A stretch of DNA of 64,000 bases from positions 7,776,041 through 7,840,040 of the forward strand of contig CM048849.1 of the NCBI GenBank assembly GCA_026545225.1, in the 5' to 3' direction. Each line of letters opens with the position of its first letter. Within the stretch, counting starts at the first letter, position 1. Under the pieces are notes generated by a model, which did not search any database, was not told the origin of the DNA, and worked only from the letters and a program-made list of their open reading frames with translations. The DNA is from Cornus controversa. Its lineage: Eukaryota > Streptophyta > Magnoliopsida > Cornales > Cornaceae. A program made the translations under genes and the position numbers. Positions 3,822 through 62,965 of the stretch are shown here, one piece after another.

Positions 3822-6345
3822 TGTCACGCCCCAATTTCTTACTCCTGGGAACTGAGGATGAACATTGTTTTCACCTCATCATCTCCTATCTCAAATCTCA
3901 ACTTAAACCATTCAATTGTGGAAGTTTTTTGTACGTACACCATTATACTGGCTAATACTCATCAATACCCCTCATGATGGACTCCATATTGGTTCTACAC
4001 ATATAAACTATCAAATTTCAGAACTCAACTTCTTATGTGATTGGAATTTGAATTTCAAACCCATATCATTGGAAAGAGGATTCAAAAATACTTGATTTAA
4101 AAAGAAAACACTCAAATTCGATCTAAAACAAAGAAGTTATACCCGATTGAAGTTTTGACATATTTCTGACTTTACAGTAAATAGTGACTTCGATTGTGCG
4201 AAATCTTAGTTTTGATTGTGCAAATTTTTTGCACAATCGAAGTGTTTGCAAAGTTCTTGCAAATTTTGTTGACATTTGGAACTTTAAAACTCTGTAATTT
4301 TTTGCACATGCCAAATGGGGGTTTCGCATATGCGAATTTTCCCCTGCAGAAACCCCAAAAACTAAGATATCTCGCAACCAATTCGCACAATCGAAAATGG
4401 GTTTCGATCATGAAAAATGGCCATTTTGAACATGCAAAATGCCTTCTCCTGCACCTTCTACAACCTTATACATTGTCCATTTTGAACCCAAATCTCAACC
4501 TAACAACCTAAGATCATTCATTCCACATATAAATCATTTTCAAATGCTATACCATCATAAACATACTCTAACTTATACATTTGAATCTCAAATCTTTCAT
4601 AATCATAAGGCGTAAACATTGAGATTCCAACAAAATGTCATATACATTCATTCCTTAAAGTGTGCATATGCCACATGTGGTACTTACATTTGAAATCTAC
4701 ATACATCAAGATAAATCAAATGTAAAGACAGCATCTTAACATAGTCCACATGCCACAAACTGGCATGGATGTCTATCTATATGATCAAAAGGTAGAAATC
4801 TAAAAGAACTCAAAAGTCCACCCATGCACTCTAAGCCTCATCCTCTATGGGAGCTTTATCTGAAAATTTTGGGAATGGGGGTGAGCATACAATTACGCTC
4901 ATAGAAATCATCCACTCGATTCTACCTTAACTCAAACAGCCATGCATGAATGCAAATGAAATCTCTACATAGCTACATGACAAAATCTATGCGTTTCAGC
5001 CTTAAAACATTCAAGTTTTGGAAATCATGAACGATGCTTCACACTTCAATATATAACAACTTGAATGAATTCACAACTCGTAAGTAAACTCACACCATGT
5101 ATACTAAAAATCAATTCCACTAAGGACTTCGTTTGTCACAATCCATAGTAAGGGTTTCTTTGAAATCACAAACTCTACTTACGCTTTTCAAGCAACTAAC
5201 CTGACGAAAGTGACACCTGCTTGGCCAAGTTTTGGGTCTTGCACGCAAGGGCTCCGGCCCTTCTTAATTCTCACACATGCCCTAAAAATTACGCTTTTCA
5301 CATAATGTACACTTATCACATAAATGCATAAAATTCACAATTCTCACATATTGCATTTTATCATATAATGCACCACAACTCAAGATTATCACAATTCTCA
5401 TTAAATACACAACATAACCAAGTTAATGCATGTCATCTTCAAGCTTGTCATAATGAAAATCACTCATTTCATGTGTAATCACAACCAATGCATTTTTAAG
5501 GAAAACTCATTTCATGTATTTTTCTCAACTTATGGAATCAAAACTCACACAATTCCTCAAATGAACACAATCATAATATGCATTCATAAACCTCACCCAA
5601 TCATGCATCATATATATAATCTCAATATATATATACATATATAAACAAAAACTTAATTCACAAAAATATCCAATATATGTTTCATGTCACAAGTAAGGGA
5701 CCTATAAAATCAAAATAAAGCAAGGATTCACACCCCTAACTCAAATCTTAAGCTTAGAAGATAAGTTCCCAAATTTTTAACTCTTTTCACCTTGTCAAAA
5801 ATCACTTTTGTTCGGTTTAAAGTGACGCCCTTAGCCCAAGGAACAATCAACCCTTCTTCAGGAAATCTCAAATCCAAGTACAAAGTCTCCAAAATTCAGA
5901 GAGAAGGGAGAAAGATGAAGTGGGAGAGTTAGAGAGAGAGAGATTTCTGGAAAATGAAATATCCCAGCCCCTCCCAAATATTTACATCTCCTTTTGGGCG
6001 TAAAATGCCCCCAAGTCACTTAATGTACCTTCCCGACCTCCATTTTTGATTTTGAAAGTTCCTACAGTCTCAAAATCACTTGTTTAATTCTCTAAATATT
6101 TCGTTTGGTCCATAACAAAAAATCATATTTTCTCAAAAAAAATTTGAATTCCCAGGCCCACTAGACCTTGTCCCGGGGCCATGTCAACCCAAAAGTCAAA
6201 CTTCACCAAAACTTTCCAAAACCTTAATACAACTCTCCAAACATGTTTCCCACAATTAAAACATGTCAAAAATCATTTAAAATGCAATTAGGGTGAAAAT
6301 GATGCTTAAAATGGAAACGGGTCAAAATTGGACCCGGTCTTTACA
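3822..6345 (-). repeat. 3' LTR of the nested gypsy element (2524 bp)
   Basis: On the plus strand it reads TGTCACGCCCC ... GGTCTTTACA. It contains a repeat cassette at about 4140-4440 (words such as CGATTGTGCGAA and GCACAATCGAA), an AT-rich middle and a GA-rich leader near 5930. It pairs with 10967-13485. Confidence 0.92.
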
Positions 6346-51399: not shown

Positions 51400-52244
51400 C
51401 TAGTTTGGGTTTTAGTCTATGGATTGCTTGGATAAGGTGATAACGCGAGAGAGGAAATGTTGAGAGTCCGAGAGATCACTTGGGTCAAAGGAGATTTGGG
51501 TGCAATATGGACGGGTTAATCCGAATTCATGAGTTGGGTTTATATTTCTAGTAATATTTTATGCCATTTTCACATATCTATATTTATTTTTTGGAAATAA
51601 GTGTTTAATAACCCAAATCTATTTTTAAATCAGTTTATAGTGTTGTTAGTTTATTAAAATATTCACAACTAAAGTCTAACTTGTTTATATTTAGAACCTG
51701 ACCCAAATTATACCCGACTTGAGACTCAAGCTAGATTCATGGGGATGGGGTAGCATTTTTGGGAGCATTAGAGTTTGAATTGAGTGTTTTATAGCTTATA
51801 TTTTTTTTCCACTTCATTAATATAGCAAACAAAATACATTAATATACGAGTGTTCTTTATGATTTATACTTACCATCTTCATAAACATCACATGTAGCAA
51901 ACAAATTAAATAGAAGAAGATGGAGGGACAAAAGAATACCCGACGAGACAAGTCATTCTGTCATCCATAGTTATGAGTTTTAAATTGTAAATGTAGGGCT
52001 AGTTGGAATTTGGGCCGACCACCAGGGAGTTTGGCACATGTGGGCCTAATCTAGCTCAATAGCTGGATAGGCTTGTTTTAGAGGCTGATCTAACCCTAGT
52101 TCAGTGATAGATTGGAACAAGCCACTCAAAACAGAGTTGGATAAAACAGGGTACTGCTTTGGGCCTTGGCTTGCCAAACTTGCACTCTAAGATAAAGGTT
52201 GTTTAATATCAACCATAAATAGGCCATAATTCATAGGATCCTGT
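51398..52244. other. RPS1 upstream region, no gene
   Basis: The presumed RPS1 promoter lies in the first few hundred bases; no reliable TATA box or known element was picked out. The stretch 52000-52200 (GGGCCGACC, GGGCCTAATCTAGC) looks like old repeat DNA. The last five bases, CCTGT (52240-52244), are the left target duplication of the palindromic retrotransposon. Confidence 0.5.
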
Positions 52245-52426
52245 TGTAGACATTAAAAAATTATATGATAGACCCAAAATACAATTTGGGTTTATTTTCA
52301 GTTTAGCCCATTTTAAAATATGGCCCAATGAGTCAGATAATTTGAAACCAGACCCACCACAAATAAATGAGTTATGGACTGGTCTAAATTGTCTAAGAAG
52401 TCAAAACCCACTTGAAAATGGGTCTA

Positions 52427-52467
<41 letters not shown>

Positions 52468-52910
52468 AATTATCAAAATTATCATAAAAGATAATTATAG
52501 GATAATTATTAAAAAAAAAGAAAGTTACAAATCTACCCCTCCGATGAGCCTATAAATAAAGGTCCAGAGGTGGGAGAAGAGAGCCCGGAAGATTCTCAGA
52601 AAAAGTTGAAGCTCTGCAGAACTCTTCACTCAAAATCCAAAACTCCAAAGCATCTAAACCCTGAAGGAAAAGAACAACAAGCACATCATCCACGTGCCGT
52701 TCTTCACCAAAGTTTCAATCCAACTCAAGATCAAGCTCTTGCAGCCCTTAAAGCCGGATTACCAAGGAGATCGAATCAGAGGACCTTATCTTCATATTTC
52801 TTTTGTAAAGATTTACAGAGGATTGTACCCTTTTTCTTGAATCAATAAAAATTGTTTATTTGTCACTAATTTTCGTTCTTAGATTTTCGGACACGAAATT
52901 TGTGTGTACA
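52245..52910 (+). repeat. Left complete LTR of the inverted dimer (666 bp)
   Basis: From TGTAGACATT to TGTGTGTACA. It includes an (AT)n tract at about 52434-52462 starting just after GGGTCTAAT, and a promoter-like TATAAATAAA at 52551-52560. The right counterpart is 62217-62874. Confidence 0.9.
52551..52560 (+). promoter_or_regulatory. LTR TATA box, left arm, directed inward
   Basis: TATAAATAAA within the LTR, about 350 bp before the internal region. The mirrored copy is at 62567-62576, so both promoters point toward the centre. Confidence 0.65.
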
Positions 52911-52916
52911 AATTTC

Positions 52917-52934
52917 TGGCACGCCCGGTGGGAC
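52917..52934 (+). promoter_or_regulatory. Primer-binding site, left arm
   Basis: TGGCACGCCCGGTGGGAC begins six bases after the LTR end, the position and TGG start expected of a tRNA-complementary primer site. I did not assign the tRNA. The right arm has GTGCCA in place of the CGTGCCA complement (TGGCACACCCGGTGGGAC when read on its strand), one change. Confidence 0.65.
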
Positions 52935-52995
52935 ATCTCTGCCTCTCATCTCTGTCTCCTACATCATACCTCCAAAACTCTGTTCATCAGAATTC

Positions 52996-55359
52996 ATGGC
53001 TCCTCCCAAGGTTCAGACGACAAACAAGAAAAACTCAAAAGAAACCGCTGCTGCAATGGCTAACACCAAAGTTGCCGCAAGCAATGACAAGAACACTAGG
53101 AACCTGTCAAGTGCCAGCAGCACCTCAGCAGGTCCTATAACGCGTAGCAAGACCAAAGCAATTGCTTCGCTCAAGAATCAGCAAGATTTGGTAAAAACCA
53201 ATCCTGCTAAACCAATGGATGTGAAAACTAAATATGTTAACACCATTGATCCTCAGGGGGCAAGGAACTCTAACGTAGTTTCAGAAAATTCGGCGCCACC
53301 ACATTCACCCCACTCTATCTCTGACGCCAACTCTAGCGTCGGTTCGCTCTCAGAGTCGTTACTTGAGATTTCAGAGCAATCGGTCCCTTCAAAGAATGTT
53401 GGCCCTCAAGGTCTTTCCTATTCAAATGTTGTCGTAGCTATGATGACTGGAACAACCTCGGTGGAAGACCAACTCGCAGTCATGGCGCGCGCAATCGAAA
53501 ACCTCACAAAGATTGTTGAAAAGAAGGACTTGCAGATCATCGTGCTAATGAGTAAGCTTGAAATCCAAAATCCTAACAAGTCAACACATCTACATGCGAA
53601 TACTTCAAATTCATCTCTTCAAGGTGTCCAATCAAAAGATCGTCGTCATACATTTGTGTCAGGACACATGGCTGACGAAACTAACCCTGCTTTGCCAGTC
53701 GCTTTGTTATCTGTCCAACAGTTGTAAGATATAATAACGAATACAATCCGAGCACAGTATAGCGGCGCCCCTCAAAGCACTCTTGTGTACTCAAAACCCT
53801 ACACCAAAAGAATTGACAGCTTAAAGACGCCAGTGGGATATCAACCGCCAAAATTCCAACAATTTGATGGAAGAGGCAATCCCAAACAATATGTTGCACA
53901 TTTTGTGGAGACCTGCAATAACGCTGGCACCGAAGGGGATCTCTTGGTCAAACAATTTGTTCGTTCCCTCAAAGGGAATGCATTTGATTGGTACACGGAC
54001 CTCAAAGTTAGAAGTATTGACTGTTGGGAGCAGATGGAGCGAGAGTTTCTTAACCGCTTCTACAGTACTCGTAGAACAATAAGCATGCTAGAACTCACTA
54101 GCATGAAACAAATTAAAGACGAGCTTGTGGTCGACTATATCAACTGCTGGCGAGCTCTAAGTCTTGATTGCAAAGACCGTCTTTCTGAAGTATCAGCAGT
54201 CAAAATGTGTATGCAAGGCATGCACTAGGAGCTTCTTTACATTCTGCAAGGAATCAAGCCTCGTACGTTTGAAGAATTGGTTACTCGTGCCAATGATATA
54301 GAGCTCAGCATAATAAGTCGTGGTGCAAAGGCTTTTGCCTTTCCCAATCTGTCTGACAACTGTCTTAAAGATGAAGAGGTTGAGTCTGAAGAGGAAGAGG
54401 AAGACGAAATACTTCCTAACTCGGACGATGAAATAAATACATCTTATGTTACAAGTATCGTCTCTAACGACTTGTATCAAAAAACACATCGTGTTCCTTC
54501 CGTAACTTCATCTGATAGTTCTCGATTAAATAAGACATTAAGTCAAGAAAACCTTGATAGAAGACTGAACAGACAGGGGGCAAACCTTCCATACAAGACT
54601 CATTCCCAACTCTCTCACATGAAATATCCTTGGCATGGGGGCAAGATTCACAGCTGTCTTTTAAAAAGGCCTACACATTTTATCAAATCTAGAAATAAGA
54701 AAGAAGTCCCAAGAAGGAAACAAGAAAAATAAAAGAATAACCAAAATGACGAATCTGAAGGATTTGTGTTGAAGATGCGGTATCGGAATAATCCGTCAAA
54801 TTTTACTCAAACAACTTCAAGTAAAAGAGTTCAAAATACTGTGCTTGCCTGGAGGCCAAAGAAGAATACTCAAGAAGGGAATGATTATAAAAAGATCTCG
54901 CAAGAATCATGGCCCAGAAATACACGAGTGATGTCTCAACAGTCACTTTCTCGAACTGTCTCTGACAATCAGCGAAACGAAGGTCTCGAAAAAGAAAGCG
55001 AGGAACAAGAACAAAATCGTTTACAATCCCAGATGGAACGAGAGGGTCAAAAAATTAAAAGACTAGAAAAAGAAAAAGTGTGGGGACCAAAGCCCGAAGA
55101 TGCTGTCTGGATCGAATCTCGTAGCGGAATAAAAGCATATTGGGTGAGGTTCAATCCTCCTGCATCAACCACGACAAATGAAATACCTCTTCCTTTTGGG
55201 TGGGGAGACGAGTTCGAAGACGATGTTTCTTCTCAAGTACGAGAAGAGTATAATGAAGAAATAAAACAAGAAGAAAATCTTCAAATTGACGCTGAGCTGA
55301 TTCACACCTTTCAACACAAGTTTGGACTGTCTCCTGAGTCTTGCAAAGCTAAAGACTAA
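52996..55359 (+). pseudogene. gag of the left arm, one frame with three stops
   Basis: From the Met of MAPPKVQ a single frame runs 788 codons to 55357-55359, interrupted only by TAA at 53725, TAG at 54226 and TAA at 54730. The N-terminal third is Ser/Asn/Lys-rich. The middle (about 53830-54220) is the retrotransposon gag core: PPKFQQFDGRGNPKQYVAHF, then LVKQFVRSLKGNAFDWY and WEQMEREFLNRFY. The C-terminal part is charged. No CCHC knuckle or pol follows. The right arm shows CAA at the 53725 and 54730 positions, so those two stops are private to this arm; the TAG is shared. Confidence 0.88.
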
Positions 55360-55371
55360 GTAAAGCTAAAA

Positions 55372-55915
55372 GTGCTCCCCGATATGAGCCTAAACTGTCG
55401 ATGATACTCTATGACACGAGTATAAACTGTCTACAAAAAAAAAAAAAACACTCCTTGACACGAGTATAAACTGTCTACCAAAAAAAAAAGGATGATACTC
55501 TATGACACGAGTATAAACTGTCTACAAAAAAAAAAAAAAAACTCCCTGACACGAGTATAAACTATCTACCAAAAAAAAAAGGATGACACTCCTTGACACG
55601 AGTATAAACTGTCCACCAAAAAAAAAACACTCCTTGACACGAGTATAAACTGTCTACCAAAAAAAAAAAAAAAGAGGATGACACTCCTTGACACGAGTAT
55701 AAACTGTTTACCAAAAAAAAAAAAGAGATGACACTCCTTAACACGAGTATAAACTGTTTACCAAAAAAAAAAAAAAAATACTCTTTGATACGAGTATAAA
55801 CTGTCTAAAAAAAAAAAAAAAAAACACTCATGACATGAGTATAAACTGTCTGCATTAAAAAAAATAATAATCACTCCTTGATATGAGTATAAACTATCTT
55901 TACAAAAAAAAAAAA
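55372..55915 (+). repeat. Tandem array 1, left arm
   Basis: About eleven units of 35-55 bp, each CTCCTTGACACGAGTATAAA then CTGTCTACC and an A-run of variable length. The mirror array on the right is at about 59375-59815 with about nine to ten units. Confidence 0.9.
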
Positions 55916-56004
55916 AAATTTGAAGCTTGCAAGAGAAGAGTTGGGTGACCTGACCTGCCGCCGAGATATTGACGGATGTCTGCTGCATCGTGGTGATTTG
56001 GCCT

Positions 56005-56525
56005 GACCCCGAAGGGACAGAAAGAGTGACACCGAAGTGCACTAAGGGACCCCGAAGGGATGAGTGACACCGAAGTGCACTAAGGGACCCCGAAAGGACA
56101 ATAAGAGTGACACCGAAGTGCACTAAGGGACCCCGAAGGGACAGTAAGAGTGACACTGAAGTGCACTAAGGGACCTCGAAAGGACAATAAGAGTGACACC
56201 GAAGTGCACTAAGGGACCCCGAAGGAATAGTAAGAGTGACACCGAAGTGCACTAAGGGACCCCGAAGGGACGAGTGACACCGAAGTGCACTAAGGGACCC
56301 CGAAGGGACAATAAGAGTGACACCGAAGTGCACTAAGGGACCCCAAAGGGATAATAAGAGTGACACCGAAGTGCACTAAGGGACCCCGAAGGGACAATAA
56401 GAGTGACACCGAAGTGCACTAAGGGACCCCAAAGGGACAATAAGAGTGACACCGAAGTGCACTAAGGGACCCCGAAGGGACAAAAAAGTGACACCGAAGT
56501 GCACTAAGGGACCCCGAAAGGACTA
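56005..56525 (+). repeat. Tandem array 2, left arm, 12 units
   Basis: Twelve copies of a 38-45 bp unit: GTGACACCGAAGTGCACTAA then GGGACCCCGAAGGGACAATAAGA with a variable tail. In the right arm the array (59147-59372) has only five. Units contain the internal near-palindrome GTGCAC. Confidence 0.92.
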
Positions 56526-56904
56526 ATGAATGGCGTCTGAAACTCCATATTATGAGAAAGACGATTTGACTTGCAAGAATTGAAAAAAAATATATATTTG
56601 AAACTTGCCAAGAAAAGTTGAGTGACTTACGTAAAGATATCTTCCTCAATGAGTTCGATAGATCTATTCGTCGTTCCAGAGACAGCACAAAATTCGAGCA
56701 GGGCCCACAAGTGAAATCTGATCTGAAAAAAATAGATTTGATTAATAGCGGTTATGGAAGACAAAGTTGTTACTAAAGAAAAATGTTCCTTTCAAAGTTT
56801 AAGGACATATATATTTTGTTGCAAAAGTTTATAATACAAGTAGTTGTGTAGCAGAGATGGTGTGGTGCTATAATGTCTTCTAATGAGATCTTGTGTTCAA
56901 ATCT

Positions 56905-57247
56905 ACCAAGCACCAAAAAAAGAAACTTTATTCCTTTTACACATCAAAGGAAAAGAGAAGGAAGAAAAAAAAAAGAGAAAAGAAAAAAAAAAAAAAAAAA
57001 GAAGAAGAAACAGGCGTGAAAAGAAGAAAGAAATAAAGAAAAAAAAAAAAAGTCAACGTGAAGAGAAGAAAAAGGAAAGAAGAAGTGTCGTGAGGCGCTG
57101 GAGGAGGAGAAAGAAAGAAGAAACTGTCGTGAGGTGCTGGAGGAGAAAGAAAGAAGAAAAAGAGAAAAAAAAAAAAAAGAAGAAGAAAGAAAAGAAAAAA
57201 AAAAAAAGAAGGAAAAAGAAAAAGAAAAAGAAAAAGAAAAGAGAGCT
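56905..57247 (+). repeat. Homopurine (A/G) block, left arm
   Basis: Nearly all A and G for about 340 bp, e.g. runs of AAGAAGAAA, with a few C-containing islands (GTCGTGAGGCGCTGGAGGAG). Open frames across it encode only Lys/Glu/Arg and are not genes. Mirror block at about 58365-58735. Confidence 0.9.
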
Positions 57248-57296
57248 TACAGTTGCTGGAATTCATGAAATTTCTGAAGTGTAGGCTACATATATA

Positions 57297-57560
57297 TAGT
57301 GGTGAGTTAATCCTATTTGACATAGGATTTTCAATACTCCAATTCCGTTTGAACATGGAAAACAGCAAATCCTATTTGAAATTGGATAAGGAAAAAAAAT
57401 TCTATTTGCAATAGGATTCTCAAGTCTTCAATTCCACTTGGACCAGAAAAAAAAAATCCTATTGGCAATAGGATCCTCAAGTATTTGATTCAACTTGACA
57501 AAGAAGACATCCTTTTTGCAGTTGAATTTTCGCACAAAAAAAAAAAGCAAAATTTAAATA
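57297..57560 (+). repeat. Diverged repeats upstream of the polypurine tract, left arm
   Basis: Three or four units of about 65-75 bp: TCCTATTTGACATAGGATTT, then TCCTATTTGAAATTGGA, TTCTATTTGCAATAGGATTC and TCCTATTGGCAATAGGATCC. Most contain a short inverted pair (TCCTAT ... ATAGGA). Mirrored at 58050-58310. Confidence 0.75.
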
Positions 57561-57610
57561 CTTCAAGTCCCGCTTTAAATACGTGACAAACTCAACATGG
57601 CACGAGACTT

Positions 57611-57625
57611 AAAGTGGGGGCAATT
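57611..57625 (+). promoter_or_regulatory. Polypurine tract, left arm
   Basis: AAAGTGGGGGCAATT immediately precedes the LTR start TGTAAATATT. Mirror at 57985-57999. Confidence 0.8.
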
Positions 57626-57984
57626 TGTAAATATTAAAAAATTACATGATATACCCAAAATACAATTTGAGTTTATCTTCAGTTTAGCCCACTTTAAAAT
57701 ATGGCCCAATGAGTCAGATAATTTGAAGCCAGACCCACCACAAATAAATGAGTTATGGGCTGGTCTAAATTGTCTAAGAAGTCAAAGCCCACTTGAAAAT
57801 ATTAGACCCATTTTCAAGTGGGCTTTGACTTCTTAGACAATTTAGACCAGCTCATAACTCATTTATTTGTGGTGGGTCTGGCTTCAAATTATCTGACTCA
57901 TTGGGCCATATTTTAAAGTGGGCTAAACTGAAGATAAACTCAAATTATATTTTGGGTATATCATGTAATTTTTTAATGTCTACA
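57626..57984. repeat. Fused 3' LTR fragments forming the palindrome centre
   Basis: Left fragment 57626-57800 (first 175 bp of the LTR) meets right fragment 57801-57984 (first 184 bp, reversed). The 9-base spacer ATTAGACCC (57801-57809) separates the perfect arms ACTTGAAAAT and ATTTTCAAGT. Neither fragment continues into the (AT)n tract that follows GGGTCTAAT in the full LTRs. Confidence 0.93.
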
Positions 57985-58364
57985 AATTGCCCCCACTTTA
58001 AGTCTCGTGCCATGTTGAGTTTGTCACGTATTTAAAGCGGGACTTGAAGTATTTAAATTTCGCTTTTTTTTTTTTGTGCGAAAATTCAACTGCAAAAAGG
58101 ATGTCTTCTTTGTCAAGTTGAATCAAATACTTGAGGATCCTATTGCCAATATGATTTTTTTTTCTAGTCCAAGTTGAATTGAAGACTTGAGAATCCTATT
58201 GCAAATAGAATTTTTTTTCCTTATCCAATTTCAAATAGGATTTGCTGTTTCCATGTTCAAACGAAATTGGAGTATTGAAAATCCTATGTCAAATAGGATT
58301 AACTCACCACTATATATATGTAGCCTATACTTCAGAAATTCCATGAATTCCAGCAACTAGCTCT

Positions 58365-58740
58365 CTTTTCTTTTTCCTTTTTTTTTTCCTTCTTTTTTTC
58401 TTTTCTTTCTTCTTCTTCTTTTCTTTTCTTTTCTTTTTCTTCTTTCTTTCTCCTCCAGCGCCTCACGACAGTTCTTCTTTCTTTTTGTTTTTTCACTTTT
58501 TTTTTTCTTCTCTTCTTTCTTCTTTTTTTTTTTTCTTTCTTTCTTTCTCCTCCTCCAGCGCCTCACGACACTTCTTCTTCTTCTTCTTCTTCTTTTTTTT
58601 TTTTTTTTTTTTTTCTTTTTTTCACTTTTTTTTTCTTTTTCTTCTTTCTTTCTTCTCTTCACGCCTGTTTCTTCTTCTTTTTTTTTTTTTTTCTTTTCTT
58701 TTTTTTTTTCTTCCTTCTCATTTCCTTTGATGTGTAAAAA
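58365..58740 (-). repeat. Homopyrimidine (C/T) block, right arm
   Basis: Mirror of the left purine block; long CT and T runs with islands containing CCTCCAGCGCCTCACGACA. Together with the left block it could pair across the palindrome. Confidence 0.88.
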
Positions 58741-59146
58741 AAACAAAGTTTCTTTTTTTGGTGCTTGGTAGATTTGAACACAAGATCTCATTAGAAGACA
58801 TTATAGCACCACACCATCTCTGCTACACAACTCCTTGTATTATAAACTTTTGTAACAAAATATATATGTCCTTAAACTTTGAAAGGAACATTTTTCTTTA
58901 GTAACAACTTTGTCTTCCGTAACCGCTATTAATCAAATCTATTTTTTTTCAGATCAGATTTCACTTGTGGGCCCTGCTCGAATTTTGTGCTGTCTCTGGA
59001 ACGACGAATAGATCTATCGAGCTCATTGAGGAAGATATCTTTACGTAAGTCACTCAACTTTTCTTGGCAAGTTTCAAATATATATATTTTTTCAATTCTT
59101 GCAGGTCAAATCGTCTTTCTCAGAATATAGAGTTCCAGACGCCATT

Positions 59147-59372
59147 CATTAGTCCCTTCGGGGTCCCTTAGTGCACTTCGGTGTCACTGTTATTGTCCCT
59201 TCGAGGTCCCTTAGTGCACTTTGGTGTCACTCTTTCGTCCCTTCGGGGTCCCTTAGTGCACTTTAGTGTCACTCTTATTGTCCCTTCGGGGTCCCTTAGT
59301 GCACTTCGGTGTCACTCGTCCCTTCGGGGTCCCTTAGTGCTCTTCGGTGTCACTCTTACTGTCCCTTCAGTA
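59147..59372 (-). repeat. Tandem array 2, right arm, 5 units
   Basis: Mirror of 56005-56525, reading TTAGTGCACTTCGGTGTCAC with TCCCTTCGGGGTCCC. Only five units remain or were gained. Confidence 0.9.
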
Positions 59373-59374
59373 AG

Positions 59375-59815
59375 ACTTTTTTTTTTTTTTGTAGACAGTT
59401 TATACTCATATCAAGGAGTGTTTTTTTTTGGTAAACAGTTTATACTCGTGTTAAGGAGTGTCATCTCTTTTTTTTTTTGGTAAACAGTTTATACTCGTGT
59501 CAAGGAGTGCCATCCTCTTTTTTTTTTTTTTGGTAGACAGTTTATACTCGTGTCAAGGAGTGTTTTTTTTTTTTGGTGGACAGTTTATACTCGTGTCAAG
59601 GAGTGTCATCCTTTTTTTTTTGGTAGATAGTTTATACTCGTGTCAGGGAGTTTTTTTTTTTTTTTTTGTAGACAGTTTATACTCGTGTCATAGAGTATCA
59701 TCCTTTTTTTTTTGGTAGACAGTTTATACTCGTGTCAAGGAGTGTTTTTTTTTTTTGTAGACAGTTTATACTCGTGTCATAGAGTATCATCGACAGTTTA
59801 GGCTCATATCGGGGA
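59375..59815 (-). repeat. Tandem array 1, right arm
   Basis: Mirror of 55372-55915: GTAGACAGTTTATACTCGTG then TCAAGGAGTG with T-runs, nine to ten units. Confidence 0.88.
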
Positions 59816-59831
59816 GCACTTTTAGCTTTAC

Positions 59832-62131
59832 TTAGTCTTTAGCTTTGCAAGACTCAGGAGACAATCCAAACTTGTGTTGAAAGGTGTGAATCAGCTCAGC
59901 GTCAATTTGAAGATTTTCTTCTTGTTTTATTTCTTCATTATACTCTTCTCGTACTTGAGAAGAAACATCATCTTCGAACTCGTCTCCCCACCCAGAAGGA
60001 AGAGGTATTTCATTTGTCGTGGTCCATGCAGGAGGATTGAACCTCACTCAATATGCTTTTATTCCGCTACGAGATTCGATCCAGACAGCATCTTCGGGCT
60101 TTGGTCCCCACACTTTTCCTTTTTCTAGTCTTTTAATTTTTTGACCCTCTCATTCCATCTGGGATTGTAAACGATTTTATTCTTGTTCCTCGCTTTCTTT
60201 TTCGAGACCTTCATTTCGCTGATTGTTAGAGACAGTTCGAGAAAGTGACTGTTGAGACATCACTCGTGTGTTTCTGGGCCATGATTCTTGCGAGATCTTT
60301 TATAATCATTCCCTTCTTGAGCATTCTTCTTTGGCCTCCAGGCAAGCACAGTGTTTTGAACTCTCCTACTTGAAGTTGTTTGAGTAAAATTTGACGGATT
60401 ATTCCGATACCGCATCTTCAACACAAATCCTTCAAATTCGTCATTTTGGTTATGCTTTTGTTTTTCTTGTTTCCTTCTTGGGACTTCTTTCTTATTTCTG
60501 GATTTTATAAAATGTGTAGGCCTTTTTAAAAGACAGCCGTGAATCTTGCCCCCATGCCAAGGATATTTCATGTGAGAGAGTTGGGAATGAGTCTTGTATG
60601 GAAGGTTTGCCCCCTGTCTGTTCAGTCTTCTATCAAGGTTTTCTTGACTTAATGTCTTATTTAATCGAGAACTATCAGATGAAGTTACGGAAGGAACACG
60701 ATGTGTTTTTTGATAGAAGTTGTTAGAGACGATACTTGTAACATAAGATGTATTTATTTCATCGTCCGAGTTAGGAAGCATTTCGTCTTCCTTTTCCTCT
60801 TCAGACTCAACGTCTTCATCTTTAAGATAGTTGTCAGATAGATTGGGAAAAGCAAAAGCCTTTGCACCACGACTTGTTATGCTGAGCTCCATATCATTGG
60901 TATGAGTAACCAATTCTTCAAATGTACGAGGCTTGATTCCTTGCAGAATGTAAAGAAGCTCCTAGTGCATGCCTTGCATACACATTTCGACTGCTGATAC
61001 TTCAAAAAGACGGTCTTTGCAATCAAGACTTAGAGCTCACCAGCGGTTGATATAGTCGACCACAAGCTCGTCCTTAATTTGTTTCATGCTAGTGAGTTCT
61101 AGCATGCTTACTATTTTACGAGTACTGTAAAAGCGGTTAAGAAACTCTCGCTCCATCTGCTCCCAACAGTCAATACTTCTAGCTTTGAGTTCCGTGTACC
61201 AATCAAATGCATTCCCTTTGAGGGAACGAATAAACAAAATGTGCAACATGTTGTTTGGGATTGCCTCTTCCATCAAATTGTTAGAATTTTGGCGGTTGAT
61301 ATCCCACTGGCGTCTTTAAGCTGTTAATTTTTTTGGTGTAGGGTTTTGAGTACACAAGAGTGCTTTGAGGGGCGCCGCCATACTGTGCTCGGATTGTATT
61401 CGTTATTATATCTTGCAGCTGTTGGACAGATAACAAAGCGACTGGCAAAGCATGGTTAGTTTCGTCAGCCATGTGTCCTGACACAAATGTATGACGACGA
61501 TCTTTTGATTGGACACCTTGAAGAGATGAATTTGAAGTATTCGCAGGTAGATGTGTTGACTTGTTAGGATTTTGGATTTCAAGCTTACTCATTAGTGCGA
61601 CGATCTGCAAGTCCTTCTCTTCAACAATCTTTGTGAGGTTTTCATGACTGCGAGTTGGTCTTCCACCGAGGTTGTTCCAGTCATCATAGCTGCGACAACA
61701 TTTGAATAGGAAAGACCTTGAGGGCCAACATTCTTTGAAGGGACCGATTGCTATGAAATCTCAAGTAACGACTCTGAGAGCGAACCGACGCTAGAGTTGG
61801 CGTCAGAGACAGAGTGGGGTGAATGTGGTGGCGCCGAATTTTTTGAAACTACGTTAGAGTTCCTTGCCCCCTGAGGATCAATGGTGTTAACATGTTTAGT
61901 TTTCACATCCATTGGTTTAGCAGGATTGGTTTTCACTAAATCTTGTTGATTCTTGAGCGAAGCAATTGCTTTAGTCTTGCTACGCGTCATAGGACCTGCT
62001 GAGGTGCTGTTGGCACTTGACAGATTCCTAGTGTTCTTGTCACTACTTGCGGCAACTTTGGTGTTAGCCATTGCAGCAGCGGTTTCTTTTGAGTTTTTCT
62101 TGTTTGTCATCTGAACCTTGGGAGGAGCCAT
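59832..62131 (-). pseudogene. gag of the right arm, more damaged
   Basis: Mirror copy of the left gag, from MAPPKVQ at 62131 to the same SPESCKAKD end at 59832. Damage: TAG near 61751 (GAG to TAG), TAA in place of CAA in the PPKFQQFDG stretch near 61280, a deletion of about 54 bp near 61237 that removes VETCNNAGTEGDLL from the gag core between short TTTTGT/TTTGTT repeats, and a one-base loss in an A-run near 60300 that shifts the frame. It shares the TAG found at 54226 (here 60962-60964). Confidence 0.87.
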
Positions 62132-62216
62132 AGATTCTGATGAACAGAGTTTTGGAGGTATGATGTAGGAGACAGAGATGAGAGGCAGAGATGTCCCACC
62201 GGGTGTGCCAGAAATT

Positions 62217-62659
62217 TGTACACACAAATTTCATGTCTGAAAATCTAGGAACGAAAATTAGTGACAAATAAACAATTTTTATTGATTCAAGAAAAAGGGT
62301 ACAATCCTCTGTAAATATTTACAAAAGAAATATGAAGATAAGGTCCTCTGATTCGATCTCCTTGGTAATCCGGCTTCAAGGGCTGCAAGAGCTTGATCTT
62401 GAGTTGGATTGAAACTTTGGTGAAGAACGGCACGTGGATGATGTGCTTGTTGTTCTTCTCCTTCAGGGTTTAGATGCTTTGGAGTTTTGGATTTTGAGTG
62501 AAGAGTTTTGCAGAGCTTCAGCTTTTTTTGATAATCTTCCGGGCTCTTTTCTCCCACCTTTGGACCTTTATTTATAGGCTCACCGGAGGGGTAGATTTGT
62601 AATTTTCTTTTTCTTTAATAATTATCCTATAATTATCTTTTATGATAATTTTGATAATT

Positions 62660-62696
<37 letters not shown>

Positions 62697-62874
62697 CCTA
62701 TTTTCAAGTGGGCTTTGACTTCTTAGACAATTTAGACCAGCCCATAACTCATTTATTTGTGGTGGGTCTGGCTTTAAATTATCTGACTCATTGGGCCATA
62801 TTTTAAAGTGGGCTAAACTGAAGATAAACCCAAATTGTATTTTGGGTCTATCATGTAATTTTTTAATGTCTACA
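62217..62874 (-). repeat. Right complete LTR of the inverted dimer (658 bp)
   Basis: Read on its own strand from TGTAGACATT to TGTGTGTACA, with the (AT)n tract at about 62664-62692 and TATAAATAAA at 62567-62576. It differs from the left LTR by scattered substitutions and repeat length. Confidence 0.9.
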
Positions 62875-62965
62875 CCTGTATTTTATTTTGTTTGATTTAT
62901 TTTAATTTCCTGTCTTAGGTCCATGTTATATTACAAGGACATGAACCCTCCACCTTGCACTTTGG

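Follow-up and report, generated by a model that had tools for sequence, protein, structure and literature searches.

The window analyzed here, that is, the whole stretch of 64,000 nucleotides from Cornus controversa (C5:7776041-7840040 of the genome used throughout, G000; 771.7 Mb, 61 contigs), carries at positions 52240-62879 two copies of one long terminal repeat (LTR) retrotransposon lying tail to tail. The order is CCTGT, the element on the plus strand (arm A, 52245-57800, 5556 bp), the same element inverted (arm B, 57801-62874, 5074 bp), and CCTGT again (Table 1). The long inverted repeats found by a repeat search of the window (I1-I4 and I8) are 94-98% complementary, and the gap in length between the arms comes mostly from internal tandem repeats. 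These repeats (55344-57273 of the window) vary in copy number between the arms; arm A holds a 43-bp unit at 55962-56510 and a unit of about 47 bp nearby, as well as a purine-rich tract. Each arm consists of a complete outer LTR, an internal region, a polypurine tract (PPT), and then only the start of the 3′ LTR; the repeat (R) and unique 5′ (U5) portion of a 3′ LTR was not seen anywhere in the unit, either in the inverted-repeat listing or on reading the sequence. Both outer ends are unique 3′ (U3) ends, with TGTAGACATTAAAAAATTA directly following the left CCTGT and arm B ending as TAATTTTTTAATGTCTACA at 62874, whereas a standard LTR insertion has one U3 and one U5 end; likewise, in place of the two complete direct LTRs of a standard element, the 3′ LTRs are truncated and the outer LTRs inverted. 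A sequence-only reading of the window had described two tail-to-tail copies sharing a single CCTGT duplication, with U3 termini (TGTAGAC/GTCTACA) at both outer ends, unlike an ordinary insertion. Its coordinates proved right to the base, the sequence of both ends and the ordinary copies described below agree with it, and the separate duplications that it expected two insertions to leave do not occur in the window unit, nor does a U5 outer end.

Table 1. Features of the two-headed unit (window positions).
Feature	Position	Strand	Remark
Left target-site duplication, CCTGT	52240..52244		Identical to 62875-62879
Arm A, complete 5′ LTR, 666 bp, TGTAGAC...GTGTGTACA	52245..52910	+	Bounds taken from ordinary copies
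Arm A, possible TATA box, TATAAATAAA	52551..52560	+	By eye; a motif that we take to be a TATA box
Arm A, probable primer binding site, TGGCACGCCCGGTGGGAC	52917..52934	+	Putative, by position
Arm A, internal region	52911..57610	+	Frames positionally related to the gag frame of ordinary copies
Arm A, PPT, AAAGTGGGGGCAATT	57611..57625	+	Motif found before each of the 8 ordinary 3′ LTRs displayed
Arm A, truncated 3′ LTR	57626..57800	+	U3 only, first 175 bp
Tail-to-tail joint	57799..57801		Edge of U3 (AT)n tract; AT common (2 bp); 9-nt loop
Arm B, truncated 3′ LTR	57801..57984	-	First 184 bp of U3
Arm B, PPT	57985..57999	-	
Arm B, internal region	58000..62216	-	
Arm B, complete 5′ LTR, 658 bp	62217..62874	-	U3 end outermost
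Right target-site duplication, CCTGT	62875..62879		

Ordinary copies elsewhere in the genome served as the reference for normal element anatomy. The family LTR is about 660 bp long (TGTAGACATT...GTGTGTACA, with TG...CA ends), AAAGTGGGGGCAATT stands directly before the 3′ LTR in all eight ordinary copies shown, and downstream of the 5′ LTR come AATTTC and a probable primer binding site. Each of these copies has one U3 end and one U5 end, and six of the seven two-LTR elements examined are flanked by a matching 5-bp duplication (L010 ATAAT, L013 GTGGG, L014 CACAT, L015 GATGT, L016 CTCGT, L017 ATCCT); in the remaining one, L009, the U5 end is altered and no duplication can be seen. The LTR pairs of the seven elements differ by K 0.005-0.026. 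A further candidate, L018/L019 (C1, GTGAT vs GTTAT, about 11 kb apart), was left uncounted because its unity as one ordinary element was not demonstrated. In L014, a frame of 719 amino acids (aa) gives a match to Retrotrans_gag (PF03732, E 5.4e-13). The five window frames of at least 150 aa yielded neither this gag domain nor a protease, reverse transcriptase or integrase above the cut-off, and searches of seven of the ten L014 frames of at least 80 aa and two of the six L009 frames of at least 150 aa likewise detected no polymerase or integrase domain, shorter or decayed pieces lying outside the search. Since no enzyme domain turned up in the frames searched, the family, with its Ty3/gypsy-type gag, provisionally looks gag-only and would depend on enzymes supplied by another element. 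The parts of the window unit (LTR, PPT, probable primer binding site, a gag domain in a sister copy, and a 5-bp target duplication) are those of an ordinary LTR family, but the unit departs from the standard one-U3/one-U5 structure in its two U3 outer ends, its two inverted arms, and the loss of both 3′ LTRs beyond their first part.

The two arms differ by 149 transitions and 24 transversions over 4976 aligned sites (Kimura two-parameter distance 0.036). The four U3 copies within the unit (two outer, 52245-52420 and 62699-62874, and two central) differ from one another by K 0.023-0.060 over about 176 sites and thus bracket the arm divergence, which suggests that arms and insertion are of roughly equal age, a loose fit given the small U3 sample. 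A first tree, based on about 1.7 kb of internal sequence with nine other copies and with B represented by the first 996 query positions only, placed A and B as sisters (100/99), and at sites where at least eight of the nine other copies agree, 25 changes were common to A and B, 15 were confined to A and 12 to B. In the final tree of 17 rows, to which the six best other matches of a genome search with A were added and in which B was used over the whole stretch, A and B are mutually nearest (K 0.035) and sisters at 89/86, inside a clade of A, B and a newly added copy, L041, supported at 100/99; L041 is the next nearest copy (K 0.049 to A and 0.058 to B in the same comparison). L041 (C10:4099980-4101655), the copy nearest to both arms outside the window, has a long branch of its own (0.035), and it and the window arms perhaps derive from a common source element. 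The outer LTRs of the window unit (winA5 and winB5) pair in the LTR tree at 89/85; in the same tree all seven ordinary LTR pairs, and also that of L032, are sisters. Palindromic long reads are a known artefact, and an assembly error arising from a folded read was considered for this reason. However, the arms differ at 173 of the 4976 sites and in repeat number, and a folded read alone would not place a target duplication on the far side; hence, we regard an artefact as very improbable.

Outside the LTR termini, the two flanks match in inverted orientation at 7 of 12 bases over the extension of the inverted repeat, which was taken as chance, so that no duplication of host flank is visible. This bears on the possibility that inverted duplication or the repair of a break later made a palindrome out of an ordinary insertion. 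Rearrangement of this kind probably occurs in the family: L025 (C1:104621930-104631483), with a scrambled interior, about 100 bp of its left flank repeated inside, and GTTAT at both outer ends, looks like the product of chromosomal break repair. The outer ends of L025 are still one U3 and one U5, and on account of these ends and the internal flank copy it was set aside as a chromosomal rearrangement instead of being counted as a two-headed unit. The window palindrome, however, ends at both LTR termini without any flank copy being seen, its matching 5-bp repeat adjoins a U3 end where U5 would be expected, and there are four such units (below), which makes later rearrangement an improbable origin. 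A search with the joined 400-bp flanks revealed no empty site, i.e., no place with both flanks in this genome among the 40 scored of 138 candidates; the right flank runs into another repeat 86 bp beyond the duplication.

For recurrence, we surveyed the genome for outer U3 ends of the family, defined as TGTAGACATTAAAAAATTA preceded by C, by G, by A, or by a T that itself follows A, C or G (93, 90, 42 and 119 places, respectively). U3 ends linked to a PPT are preceded by TT and were excluded for that reason, so the survey misses TT-preceded outer ends and also any end that deviates from the 19-base sequence; pair counts rest on the 325 listed of the 344 counted ends. Among the listed ends, six convergent (U3-U3), one divergent and nine same-strand pairs lie within 30 kb. 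Identical 5-bp flanks enclose four of the six convergent pairs, namely the window unit (CCTGT), L030 on C2 (CTTGT), L031 on C3 (CATCA) and a unit on C8 (CACAC), an outcome with a chance probability of about 6e-11 at the computed chance of 0.0014 for a random 5-bp flank match. Because the window pair was given beforehand and the C8 pair was known before the survey, the odds were recomputed without the window (3/5, 3e-8) and without the window and C8 (2/4, 1e-5). The recurrence, with three units besides the window, was beyond the reach of the sequence-only reading, which had proposed a search for other tail-to-tail pairs with matching outer 5-bp repeats.

The two remaining convergent pairs have different flanks: ACAAT vs GTCTC for the C1 pair, in which the minus partner, an ordinary element, is flanked by GTCTC on both sides, and ATCGT vs GTGAC for the C7 pair (L032), whose minus element is flanked by GTAAC/GTGAC (4/5 bases). 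Given these duplications of their own, the non-matching pairs look like independent neighbors (the C7 pair probably so), and the four matching pairs look like single insertions. Two independent facing insertions with a chance flank match could be proposed for the window unit as well, as same-strand copies also cluster; yet this unit has no U5 outer end and no second duplication, its arms are mutually nearest, and both the low chance of a single match and the matching flanks in 4/6 pairs argue against coincidence. We therefore consider independent insertion highly unlikely here.

The four units account for 8 of the 325 listed outer U3 ends, which translates to a crude estimate of about 1 insertion in 100 being two-headed among copies that keep the 19-base end, with solo LTRs and rearranged copies included in the denominator. 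Among 200 listed of 472 U5 ends (mainly on C1 and C2; T-followed ends were not sought), we found two outward pairs within 40 kb as possible U5-U5 units; one (C1:47219785/47235374) was rejected for its differing flanks (GCTAT vs GATAC), and the ends of the other are 28.5 kb apart. Separately, C1:86561944-86662221 holds nine U5-end sites of the family LTR, all on the minus strand, eight at a spacing of about 13.8 kb and the ninth 3.5 kb further on, as though a 13.8-kb unit with the family LTR end had been repeated in tandem.

Taken together, the shared 5-bp duplication, the exact LTR termini, the lack of a visible flank duplication, the nearest-relative arms of matching divergence, and the three further U3-U3 units make insertion of the window palindrome as one unit well supported.

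The other units differ in their interiors. In L031 (C3:42154304), an LTR followed by the 5′ part of the internal region and repeats (3.4 kb) is joined to an inverted LTR that stops at or within a few bases of the U5 terminus, the joint being ambiguous by a few bases. L030 (C2:21908876) has an LTR joined to an inverted truncated element, with the joint between 1049 and 1359 of the locus, and is older (outer LTRs K 0.138). In the right arm of L030 (about 6145-6156), LTR position 505 directly abuts internal position 137, without the R-U5 end and primer site, an arrangement that is either a deletion or, possibly, a spliced leader. The C8 unit (L020-L022, C8:27425526-27444746; 19.2 kb) has pieces in both orientations between two U3 ends and CACAC/CACAC: on its left, LTR positions 1-447 are joined to an inverted internal region, with more pieces in the middle, and on its right, U3 positions 1-95 are joined to an inverted LTR from position 658. 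A stretch of its middle (about 27432100-27436800) had no match to the query pieces of the family. The outer LTRs of L030 and of L031 pair in the LTR tree (100/100 and 100/99, respectively), and the C8 arms L011 and L012 are sisters by internal sequence (100/100 in both trees). At the joints that could be traced base by base (the window and both C8 ends), 0-2 bp are common to the two sides, by eye.

At the center of the window unit, PPT-U3 (57611-57800) abuts U3-PPT (57801-57999), and both 3′ U3 copies (175 bp in A, 184 bp in B) break off at the border of the (AT)n tract in U3, at positions that differ by no more than about 10 bp. The joint, written on the strand of B as ...GAAAAT-GGGTCTAAT-ATTTTC..., gives a 21-bp stem and a 9-nt loop when read as a single strand, with 2 bp common to both sides, and a schematic U3 end with an AT tail self-folds (z -3.3). 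A 481-bp query across the joint returned, besides the window, half-length matches only (40 scored of 1884 candidates, a lower bound), and the right joint of the C8 unit gave no second full-length match (40 scored of 3138 candidates, likewise a lower bound). Two known types of product do not fit these observations. Autointegration joins an LTR terminus to an internal site, and was rejected for the window since its joint lies within U3 on both sides; the L031 joint, at or near the U5 terminus, is ambiguous in this respect. Foldback DNA transposons have inverted termini without retroelement signals, and were excluded because the arms carry a PPT, an LTR and a probable primer binding site.

The strongest rival explanation, which we nonetheless judge unlikely, is that two sister complementary DNAs (cDNAs) of one particle each gave a U3 end to the same target cut, their tails being trimmed and then joined by host end joining, which closed the chromosome. 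Two-donor integration of this kind would also account for the 5-bp duplication, for the relatedness of the arms and both U3 ends, and for joints of short homology that vary in position. However, the window tails end no more than about 10 bp apart at the (AT)n tract, which is improbable for independent trimming unless the tract is a breakage hot spot, and the several internal joints of the C8 unit look more like pieces that had been joined beforehand; neither point is decisive. Because the window arms stop so close together at a self-complementary tract, as fold-back would have them do, tail joining before integration is favored but not proven. We favor, with somewhat more confidence than doubt, the hypothesis that a palindromic, two-headed cDNA went in by a single integration event, its source being an LTR retrotransposon that has a Ty3/gypsy-type gag and in which no polymerase was found. 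With respect to the sequence-only proposal that integrase inserted an inverted-dimeric cDNA, the insertion as one unit stands on the flanks, termini, arms and recurrence, and the part that has the dimer already formed before integration is preferred, yet unproven.

Several observations weigh against this hypothesis. First, the finished sequence does not reveal the order of joining and integration. Second, about 1.0 pair of each type is expected under uniform positions and same-strand pairs are enriched too; we therefore rejected the convergent-pair excess as evidence, the nine same-strand pairs within 30 kb being likewise in excess. The family clusters generally, and it is the flank matches, not the number of convergent pairs, that carry the weight. 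Third, the C8 flank, CACAC, is a low-complexity CA run and counts for less, and the outer C8 LTRs were not recovered as a pair in the LTR tree, their nearest rows being other LTRs of the C8 unit. Fourth, near-symmetric breakpoints are found in the window only; L031 combines a nearly bare LTR with a 3.4-kb arm, and C8 has several joints. Fifth, the support for A and B as sisters dropped from 100/99 to 89/86 once L041, a closer copy, was added, and winB5 is slightly closer to a partial C8 LTR (0.0359, 487 sites) than to winA5 (0.0376, 660 sites). The drop leaves our confidence as it was, since A and B are still closest to each other and the flanks carry most of the argument. Finally, the central U3 copies A3 and B3 (57626-57984) share two changes absent from the outer A5 and B5, a pattern not expected of a simple reverse transcript; a mixed template, or conversion from arm to arm close to the palindrome center, could explain these changes.

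The proposed route would start with a cDNA that keeps its left (U3) terminus and loses its right end during or after reverse transcription. Template switching or end joining at short homologies may then link the tail of this cDNA to a sister cDNA in its particle; alternatively, the cDNA may join itself by fold-back, with the self-complementary (AT)n tract in U3 as the fold-back point in the window unit. Fold-back alone would give a hairpin with one duplex end, so that copying of the hairpin or a second molecule would also be needed. The asymmetric joints of the other units would fit fold-back with a large loop or end joining between sister cDNAs. Integrase from another element would finally treat the two U3 termini like a U3/U5 pair and make the usual 5-bp staggered cut.

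Several known systems resemble the window unit in part. Antisense nested self-insertion is reported for EVD in Arabidopsis (PMC11624286) and also brings same-family LTRs into opposite orientation, with potential hairpin or double-stranded RNA, but it splits its host element, whereas the window palindrome is enclosed whole by one 5-bp duplication. In autointegration, the viral DNA becomes the target of its own activated cDNA 3′ ends (PMC2644782); aberrant cDNA arising before chromosomal integration would be common to both cases, but no LTR terminus is present at the window joint, and the unit sits in a chromosome. Host end joining on viral DNA ends is also described for aberrant retroviral integration, where one end is joined by host enzymes, with deletion, inversion or duplication of long stretches of host sequence (PMC5041404); such events leave no short clean repeat, in contrast to the window unit, which is clean at both ends. 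Fold-back is described in yeast, where a single strand folds on itself into a hairpin and yields an inverted duplication (PMC7467729), although this concerns chromosomal rearrangement and not the cDNA of a retroelement. Full-text searches of open-access PMC papers yielded no description of a U3-U3 palindromic LTR insertion with a clean target duplication.

The units described here provide natural evidence that the retroelement integration machinery is capable of paired insertion with two identical (U3) ends, and point to a route by which failed reverse transcription leaves palindromes in chromosomes. Annotation that seeks direct LTR pairs would probably miss or split such two-headed units. It is tempting to generalize, and we do so only tentatively, with the balance of our judgment leaning slightly the other way, that LTR retrotransposition regularly yields two-headed insertions as a by-product, i.e., that palindromic two-U3 cDNAs form in the particle and are inserted with a normal target duplication, at about 1/100 insertions in this family. 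An inverted copy with two inward promoters is an expected source of hairpin or double-stranded RNA. According to PMC11624286, maize Mutator is silenced through hairpins that arise from tandem or nested transposon insertions; LTR hairpins are discussed there as a possible trigger. If two-headed insertions are indeed a regular by-product, each unit would be a ready-made hairpin locus with two inward promoters, and could start family-wide small-RNA silencing.

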